A stretch of 64,000 nucleotides of DNA from Candidatus Dormiibacterota bacterium (GTDB lineage Bacteria > Chloroflexota > Dormibacteria > CF-121). Numbering within the stretch: the first letter of the stretch is position 1; each line of letters opens with the position of its first letter. The stretch is taken from NCBI GenBank assembly GCA_035544955.1, contig DASZZN010000033.1, positions 1-64,000 on the forward strand, written 5' to 3'. The notes under the pieces are model-generated. The model saw only the letters and a list, made by a program, of their open reading frames with translations, made no database searches and was not told where the DNA came from. This document shows positions 40,638-42,391 of this stretch, one piece after another. The translations under genes were made by a program, and so were the position numbers.

Positions 40638-40649
40638 TTGGGGTCCTCC

Positions 40650-41078
40650 TTAACGGTCCACGGTGAATCCGATCCGTCGCCTAGGCGACGTGGCCTGGGT
40701 GGATGCCAGATATAAGCTGAAATGCGCAACACTACGCAGAGCTTGCGGACGAAGGCTCGCGGTCGCGATCCGAAGCTGCATCCGGGGATCGTCGGGCCAG
40801 CTCCGCCGCTGTTCCACCGCCTCCTGGCTTCCCAGGGATCGCGCCAGGTCGAGATACAGGTCGGCAACCGGGACCTCCAGGGCGCGGGCGATCGCCAGCA
40901 GCCGCTCGGAGGAGACGTCCTTGAGTCCCCGTTCCAGCTCGGAGAGGTAGGCGGGTGACAGTTCGGCGGCCTCTGCCAGCTCGCTCAGGGAGCGCTCGGC
41001 TTCCTCACGCCGCCGGCGGAGCAGGATGCCAAGGGCGACGCGGATCGAACTCGCATCTTCGCTGTGAGCGTAAGTCAT
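40650..41078 (-). CDS. XRE-family regulator, ClgR-like
   Basis: 142 aa from ATG 41078. The HTH domain (about residues 12-70) reads RVALGILLRRRREEAERSLSELAEAAELSPAYLSELERGLKDVSSERLLAIARALEVPVADLYLDLA, very close to the ClgR/PopR type of actinobacteria, which activates clpP and other protease genes. Directly downstream is clpP, 12 nt away. The C-terminal 60 residues have no clear domain. Two direct repeats matching the ClgR box lie over and just before its first codons, pointing to autoregulation. Confidence 0.85.
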   Translation of the reverse strand: MTYAHSEDASSIRVALGILLRRRREEAERSLSELAEAAELSPAYLSELERGLKDVSSERLLAIARALEVPVADLYLDLARSLGSQEAVEQRRSWPDDPRMQLRIATASLRPQALRSVAHFSLYLASTQATSPRRRIGFTVDR

Positions 41079-41092
41079 ATGCCGTGAGCGTA
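41060..41092. promoter_or_regulatory. Tandem ClgR-box-like operators
   Basis: CGCTGTGAGCG (41060-41070) fits the inverted form of the CGCYNANRGCG core recalled for actinobacterial ClgR. A second copy of GTGAGCGTA (41084-41092, first copy 41064-41072) is spaced 20 bp centre to centre, two helical turns, and matches the core with one difference. The sites flank the ATG of the regulator gene. Confidence 0.5.
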
Positions 41093-41155
41093 TGGTACCA
41101 CTTTTTGGCCGGCGCGCACGGTGCATGCCCGGGGCTCCGGCCCCGTCCTATATAC

Positions 41156-42391
41156 GTGAGAGGAGGGACTCATTCTCGAGGGATCGGCCACGCCTGGGCG
41201 GTCCTCGCCATCGCGCTCGTCATGGCCGGCTGCACCCCGACGGCGGCGGTGAGGCCGCCGACATCGACGCCGAGCGCGTCTCCTTCCCCGACCACGTCGC
41301 CGACGCCATCAGCCAGCGACTCGCCAACGCCGACGCCGGTACCGACCCCGACACCTTCCGGTGAGGATCCCGCCTTCGTTCCGTCGTTGGCTGCAATTCA
41401 GATGGTCGGGCCGCGCCTCGGCTGGGCCGCCGGATCCCATGCGATCTACGTGACGGCCGATGGCACGCACTGGACGAAACAGTACGCGTCGACGCAGGAC
41501 TACGTCGGCGTCGACTTCATCAGTGCCTCGACCGGATGGGTCGTCGGGCTCCATGAGCTGCTCGGGACGACGGACGCCGGCCGCAGCTGGCACGCGCTGG
41601 CCGAAGCGCCGGGCTGGCTGCGATCGGTGCATTTCGATAGCGCGACGCAGGGTTGGGGCATCGCCGGAGGGTCGTTTCCGGAGCCGAACCATGGCACCCT
41701 GATGGTGCAGATCGGCGCGACCTTGGTCGCGACCAATGATGGCGGTCATTCCTGGAGCAGCGTGAATAGCCCGGCCGACCCGCAAACGGTCTGCTTCAGC
41801 GATCCCGGGCACGGATGGCTTGCCACGACGGCAGGCATCGTCTACCGCAGTCCAGACGCCGGGCAAACCTGGATCAAGGCGCTCGAAATGCTCCAGGCCG
41901 GCGCCGGGCCCGGCCGGATGACGCTGCTCCAGTGCGCCGGCCCGTCCGCACTCTGGGTGTTGATGACGCTCCAGAACGGTGCCGCGGGACATCTGCCCTA
42001 TGTTGCGTACGCCACCCAGGACGGCCACACCTGGCGGACGGTGTTCGCGGAGCCGGGTACCTCGGGCGCTATGCTACCCGGCGTGCCGGCTGGACCCGAC
42101 ACCCACCCGGGGAGCATCAGCGTCGTCGATCCCGCCGATGCGGTCTTCATCGGCGACGGACCGGCCACCAACGTCGCGCAATGCGTCATTGCCAGCAATG
42201 GCGGCGCGACCCTTCGCCGCACCGGCCGCATCGACAACGCCGCCGAAACCTTCGGCGCCGCCTTCGTCAGCGTCACGGCGGGTTGGATTCTGACCCGGAA
42301 CGGCGGCGGTGACTATGTCATCGACGCGACAAGCGACGGCGGCTATCACTGGTCGCAGCAGCTGGCCGTGCCACCAACCTCCGCCGGCTAA
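41156..42391 (+). CDS. Lipoprotein with YCF48/BNR-type repeats
   Basis: 411 aa from GTG 41156. Upstream frame is open but lacks coding character. The N-terminus has a hydrophobic stretch AWAVLAIALVMAGC, a lipobox with Cys at about residue 26, then a Ser/Thr/Pro linker (about 27-65). The rest contains repeated W-x-x-G / S-x-D-x-G-x-T/S-W motifs: GTTDAGRSWHAL, ATNDGGHSWSSV, RSPDAGQTWIKAL, ATSDGGYHWSQQL, typical of the beta-propeller related to photosystem II assembly factor YCF48 and BNR sialidase-type proteins. Its role here is unknown. The stop TAA is followed directly by the GTG of the next gene. Confidence 0.82.
   Translation: MRGGTHSRGIGHAWAVLAIALVMAGCTPTAAVRPPTSTPSASPSPTTSPTPSASDSPTPTPVPTPTPSGEDPAFVPSLAAIQMVGPRLGWAAGSHAIYVTADGTHWTKQYASTQDYVGVDFISASTGWVVGLHELLGTTDAGRSWHALAEAPGWLRSVHFDSATQGWGIAGGSFPEPNHGTLMVQIGATLVATNDGGHSWSSVNSPADPQTVCFSDPGHGWLATTAGIVYRSPDAGQTWIKALEMLQAGAGPGRMTLLQCAGPSALWVLMTLQNGAAGHLPYVAYATQDGHTWRTVFAEPGTSGAMLPGVPAGPDTHPGSISVVDPADAVFIGDGPATNVAQCVIASNGGATLRRTGRIDNAAETFGAAFVSVTAGWILTRNGGGDYVIDATSDGGYHWSQQLAVPPTSAG

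Follow-up and report, generated by a model that had tools for sequence, protein, structure and literature searches.

The window, by which we mean the whole 64,000-nucleotide stretch of DNA analysed here (contig C33 of a 3.67-Mb genome), carries a gene for a ClgR/PopR-like regulator followed closely by clpP, with two copies of a palindromic box lying over the start of the regulator gene. Judged by the constraint acting on its DNA, this repeat is a real and conserved operator. We consider it probable that it is the tandem operator of the regulator itself, serving negative autoregulation of the regulator-clpP operon with its dedicated second clpP. Dimers of the regulator would bind the two boxes, which are 20 bp or approximately two helical turns apart, and would cover the predicted transcription start together with the first codons; occupied boxes would block transcription of the operon. 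With an mRNA that is leaderless or nearly so, box 2 would have had to lie within codons 3-7, thereby also fixing residues A4, S6 and E7. The regulator is best regarded as a one-operon autoregulator, most likely a repressor, and not as a multi-gene ClgR circuit. On this reading, Clp regulators of the ClgR/PopR type reach a Dormibacterota-like class and further families of the same phylum, where the circuit seems to differ in sign and scope from a multi-gene activator. The operator would also be a clear example of a regulatory site that is encoded within codons and dictates the peptide.

The operon and its tandem boxes

The regulator stop codon and the clpP start codon (Table 1) are separated by the 12 nt that the original prediction had given. 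The arrangement recurs throughout the class: clpP follows 3' of the regulator on the same strand in 62/62 loci, at a distance of -24 to +32 nt in 61 of the 62. The other clpP of the window's genome adjoins clpX, and two f1 genomes without the regulator (G008 and G015) possess a single clpP each. We named the group the ‘Dormibacterota-like class’ from the named relatives of the regulator gene, namely MAGs of soil Chloroflexi together with one of Candidatus Dormiibacterota, and we infer the exact taxon of the window. The regulator is present in 62 of 110 class genomes and absent from 48 (E 1e-15); a match in G059 and fragments in G089 and G003:C85 were recorded without locus extraction. L160 (G149:C240), a regulator-clpP unit of class type, lies in a genome assigned to f17 and is counted with the class despite that placement; it may reflect transfer or contamination, and may be a stray contig. 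In L015, the G005 orthologue, the regulator carries a premature TAG, with the boxes and clpP still there.

Table 1 Features of the regulator-clpP operon in the window
Feature	Position	Strand	Remarks
Putative extended -10, TGG-TACCAT	41092..41100	minus	abuts box 1; f1 consensus TGCTA..AT; predicted start site inside box 1
Box 1, TACGCTCACGGCATA	41078..41092	minus	candidate operator copy just 5' of start codon; its final base forms the A of ATG
Box 2, TACGCTCACAGCGAA	41058..41072	minus	candidate operator copy in regulator codons 3-7; codon conservation
ClgR/PopR-like XRE regulator, 142 aa	40650..41078	minus	ATG 41078, stop 40650; domain and structure matches
Ile-Gly-Phe, codons 136-138	40665..40673	minus	candidate ClpP-docking tripeptide in disordered C-terminal tail; 61/61 class orthologues
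Ribosome-binding site AAGGAGG	40645..40651	minus	5' of clpP; SD-like core here in 59/60 loci
clpP, second clpP of the genome	39990..40637	minus	ATG 40637; catalytic motifs present

Within the window, GTGAGCGTA occurs at 41064-41072 and 41084-41092, the two copies being 20 bp apart as predicted, and the window contains the pair at this spacing just once, whereas none of 100 shuffles has it. The pair spans the predicted transcription start and, within the regulator gene, the start codon and codons 3-7, so that the proposed location of the site in the first codons of the gene holds for box 2. As to the agreement with the ClgR consensus that had been claimed for it, the core of the window box does fit the ClgR box; taken alone, the short core CGCYNANRGCG is no evidence, since it matches the window at a chance level (10 matches versus 8.8 expected). 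The 18-base consensus, as quoted in PMC2905415, is WNNWMGCYNNNRGCGWWS; it is missed by one base, and a search of the window returned four other places and none at the box site, which fails at the outermost base. The weight of the evidence lies instead with the relatives, through the PWM ranking and through codons constrained beyond the protein. A PWM built from the boxes of the relatives, with the window's own two included, ranks both window boxes first in the 64 kb, at 22.5 and 20.3, the next match scoring 12.2.

Seventy distinct loci were extracted, of which 62 belong to the class type and eight to other families, and 60 of them formed the rows of the codon test (excluded were L167-L174 as outside the class, L015 for its premature stop and L166 for its different start). 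The Ser6 codon is AGC in all 60 class loci, compared with 176/576 Ser codons in the rest of the same genes. Where residue 7 is Glu its codon is GAA (52/52; background 109/635), the remainder at this position being Val, encoded by GTA in 7/7, and a GGA codon in a single locus. Ala4 is encoded by GCT in 36 and GCC in 23 loci, accounting for 59/59 Ala codons against a background in which GCG is common (478/1294). Kinship among the rows means that these counts are not independent events, for which reason the within-gene ranking serves as the control: of 55 conserved columns, 7, 4 and 6 rank first, second and third by departure from background. The repeat is thus conserved in relatives outside Actinomycetota, as had been anticipated, and its spacing is preserved along with its codons, at 20 bp in 46 of the 60 class loci, 21 in nine, 19 in four and 26 in one. 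The last of these is L024, where the best box 1 match lies at 26 bp, unlike the 59/60 loci at 19-21 bp. The right half of box 1 is degenerate or weak in many, indeed most, f3 loci; this, like the lack of the regulator in 48 class genomes, weighs against the proposed operator. An f1-type copy of TACGCTCACAGCGAA was also found apart from the regulator at G092:C79:2210-2224, in an f3 genome whose contamination is 9%.

Tandem boxes are likewise present at the clpP-linked actinobacterial loci L072, L073 and L108, with TACGCTCAGAGCGAA as box 2 in the first two. The contig of L073 is filed as a Bifidobacterium breve MAG; its regulator is nearly identical to that of L072, from an actinobacterial MAG of other origin, and the contig is probably misfiled.

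Promoter architecture and the sign of regulation

The sole conserved block in the f1 upstream alignment is an extended -10-like element, TGCTA..AT, which touches box 1 and has its f3 counterpart in gTAt..TT; no conserved -35 or upstream block was seen in the aligned class upstream regions. An SD-like core precedes the regulator in 11/60 loci compared with 59/60 for clpP, making it likely, on this comparison, that the regulator mRNA is leaderless or has a very short leader. With the leader short or absent, both boxes would lie at and past the start site. Their position 3' of the -10-like element suggests autorepression, unlike the activation exerted by ClgR and PopR, and the originally suggested autoregulation of the regulator-clpP unit fits this architecture, in which the boxes lie over the start and clpP accompanies the regulator at every class locus.

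Comparable placement is seen elsewhere in the phylum. In families f19, f35 and f38, tandem boxes of the TATGCY-N3-RGCATA type occur at the regulator, usually with a spacing of 28-30 bp, and the regulator and clpP are divergently oriented. Most of these loci possess a TTGNNN-17/18-TA...T promoter-like match just 5' of the boxes, the match in L330 being different. Regulator-clpP intervals in other families (n = 11) contain two or three box matches each, against none or one in the remainder of each locus. The distance from the boxes to the clpP start is about 390-550 bp at f19-type loci, which makes direct control of clpP less certain there. Box placement in the class and in these families suggests a repressor.

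The same operator could nevertheless act with the opposite sign, the regulator activating its own operon as ClgR and PopR do. All characterised relatives that we found are called activators, and the PopR site is likewise described as a tandem pair at a clpP operon (PMC9775585). We regard activation as unlikely here, given that the boxes are 3' of the -10-like element and extend to codon 7, and that several f19-type relatives present a promoter-like match with both hexamers 5' of the boxes. It is much less probable that some other regulator occupies the boxes, or that their target is the divergent gene whose start is near 41156. This lipoprotein-like gene is indeed kept in f1, where 12 loci were matched; however, it was seen at f1 loci only, and the boxes persist in f2 and f3 beside other neighbours, on which grounds we rejected it as the target of the boxes.

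Slightly more doubtful still is an action at the level of RNA, with codons 3-7 forming a hairpin or a translation-initiation signal. The arms of TTCGC-N5-GCGAA are able to pair, and a short or absent leader would suit such a role. Among 17 of the 18 distinct box-2 variants, however, pair 2/14 is broken in nine and no pair is changed on both sides; the covariation score is reached by 500/500 shuffles, and there is no Rfam match. A further copy of the motif, box 1, lies 5' of the start codon, and other families have it in non-coding DNA. The pairing counts and the box-1 copy led us to reject the hairpin. That a conserved N-terminal peptide alone is under constraint, the DNA merely following, is scarcely credible, for although an alignment of 19 proteins shows no variation at A4, S6 and E7, the choice among synonymous codons is fixed far above background, residues 1-6 are predicted to be disordered in the regulator model, and the box survives changes of residue, as in g17-type relatives, where YAHSE has become SALSV and yet the DNA is retained (TCTGCTCTGAGCGTA; GCTCTGAGCG). 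Given the predicted disorder of residues 1-6, the invariance of A4, S6 and E7 is best explained by the operator.

Relation to known Clp regulators and scope of the circuit

The protein bound at this operator is presumably the regulator itself. Its HTH had been likened to that of ClgR, and ClgR structures are its nearest solved neighbours both by sequence, as the best PDB matches (E 5e-14), and by fold, as the top Foldseek matches of the predicted model (mean pLDDT 74.5), which cover the HTH only. The XRE HTH is about 48% identical to that of C. glutamicum ClgR in structural alignment, and the regulator shares with the ClgR proteins of Actinomycetota (S. lividans, C. glutamicum and M. tuberculosis) a GCY-N3-RGC core site and a link to clpP. 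Unlike ClgR, it scores 57.9 bits against an NCBIfam equivalog cut-off of 170, its gene lies beside clpP, its boxes stand 3' of a -10-like element and are lacking before clpX, Clp_N and lon, and its C-terminus has no AA/VA tail. The commonest last two residues of the 61 class proteins are RR (23), DR (13), SR (7) and GR (6), with neither AA nor VA among the pairs listed; actinobacterial homologues end in AA in 33/67 and in VA in 7/67. A C-terminal AA in Streptomyces, or a nonapeptide ending in VA in mycobacteria, is described as a degradation signal, and ClgR and PopR as activators, in PMC9775585, PMC9765437 and PMC5352834. In a tree built from few columns, the class proteins group together as a single clade (99/93) that excludes most actinobacterial ClgR-like proteins. 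In PMC11237479, ClgR is called unique to Actinobacteria; among the matches listed from the open-licence literature, where absence is weak evidence, no paper reports ClgR in Dormibacterota.

PopR offers a closer parallel in arrangement, being described as a paralogue of ClgR that is devoted to an extra clpP operon, clpP3clpP4 of Streptomyces, and as itself degraded by ClpP1P2 (PMC9775585, PMC9765437). Compared by description only, the regulator resembles PopR in its association with an additional clpP and in its tandem palindromes. Dedication of the PopR type is here represented by co-localisation alone, in 62/62 class loci, with the other clpP next to clpX. Unlike the PopR operon, the window operon has only one clpP, its boxes straddle the start codon at a spacing of 20 bp, and its regulator has an I-G-F tail. 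The sites also differ in sequence: the PopR site consists of tandem palindromes of the TCTGCC type (TCTGCC-3N-GGC...; PMC9775585), as opposed to TACGCT-N3-RGC... for the window boxes. Eight Microbacterium homologues (L075, L092, L103, L122, L127, L131, L135 and L138) are encoded beside clpP pairs; some 115-140 bp upstream, their loci have the perfect palindrome TCTGCTCAGAGCAGA, which is similar to the PopR site given in a review.

Repression of Clp protease genes also has a precedent outside the ClgR family. The ctsR gene heads a clpC operon. For Bacillus subtilis and relatives, CtsR is described as a repressor of Clp protease genes (PMC12634643), and the regulator is like it in being a proposed repressor of such a gene. 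The two proteins are unrelated, and no CtsR family appears among the Pfam/NCBIfam matches of the regulator (E 1e-3).

Conservation of the ClgR circuit as such, which the original prediction had inferred, is not supported by these differences, nor by the protease loci covered, near which no further conserved copies of the box were detected. Of the two outcomes by which the original prediction was to be refuted, the lack of further copies near protease genes holds for the clpX, Clp_N and lon loci, and the lack of conservation in relatives is false. No conserved box was detected by PWM before clpX, Clp_N (ClpC/ClpB-type) or lon genes in 30 loci each, mostly the best-scoring ones; weak matches are scattered among these loci, for example in L214, L260 and L270. 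The clpX, Clp_N and lon loci of the window's own genome are also without a box, their best match, inside L315, reaching 12.3 compared with 22.5 and 20.3 for the window boxes. L315 (G000:C5:141500-147500) contains a second clpX adjoining a Clp_N-type ATPase gene, and the genome as a whole has two ClpX and three Lon matches. Across 110 class genomes the strict pattern TWCGCYNANAGCGAA occurs at 62 places. Of these, 50 coincide with the regulator gene or pieces of it, and the 12 remaining places do not outnumber the 16 matches of the control. The strict box is all but restricted to the regulator gene, and a wider regulon finds no support, there being no conserved boxes at the clpX, Clp_N and lon loci and no more strict matches away from the regulator than in the controls. 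With one mismatch allowed, the pattern finds 63 places in the window's genome against 44 in controls, a mild excess, and a second perfect box match lies within an open reading frame at C5:166702.

An I-G-F tripeptide in the regulator tail

The C-terminal tails of the class regulators are variable and rich in Pro and Arg, and in all 61 they contain an invariant I-G-F that starts 5-12 residues from the end. Residues 136-142 of the window's regulator, which include the tripeptide, have a pLDDT under 50 in the model. I-G-F is encoded by 13 codon combinations among the class proteins, indicating that the constraint here is on the protein. The tripeptide I-G-F or L-G-F is described as docking unfoldases in the hydrophobic pocket of ClpP (PMC4416901), and docking of ClpX on ClpP by I-G-F also figures in a reference title in PMC9775585. 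Both ClpX proteins of the window's genome carry KQIGFG. The tail thus shares the tripeptide of the ClpX IGF loop, and differs from it in belonging to a DNA-binding protein and not to an AAA+ unfoldase.

It is tempting to speculate that the regulator directly senses the state of ClpP. A ClpP whose docking pockets are free would bind the I-G-F tail and change the hold of the regulator on its operator, by co-repression or by release, thus setting clpP output according to protease occupancy. We advance this as a tentative proposal, somewhat short of an even chance. If the tail does bind ClpP, the regulator would be a transcription factor that measures its protease through the docking signal of the unfoldases. 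No paper on a transcription factor with an IGF tripeptide was among the matches listed from the open-licence literature, in which absence is weak evidence.

Elsewhere in the phylum, the distribution of the tripeptide follows linkage to clpP. Of 20 loci outside the class, 11 have clpP in reach and IGF is present in 11/11; no clpP was seen in the other nine, eight of which are without IGF. The ninth, L338, has IGF and is counted as undecided because its contig ends about 170 bases past the gene. Similarly, the clpP-linked L173 possesses IGF and the unlinked L174 is without it. Combined, [ILV]GF outside the class is found in 12/12 linked and 0/9 unlinked loci with one undecided, though the families cluster and represent few independent events. 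The tripeptide follows the ADFS helix in the class and precedes it in f19 and L072-type proteins. Its occurrence at non-homologous places in clpP-linked lineages, together with its absence from unlinked relatives, suggests a repeatedly used link between repressor and protease. Among 67 actinobacterial homologues, 25 have clpP in the locus and five carry [ILV]GF, all five of them with clpP in the locus.
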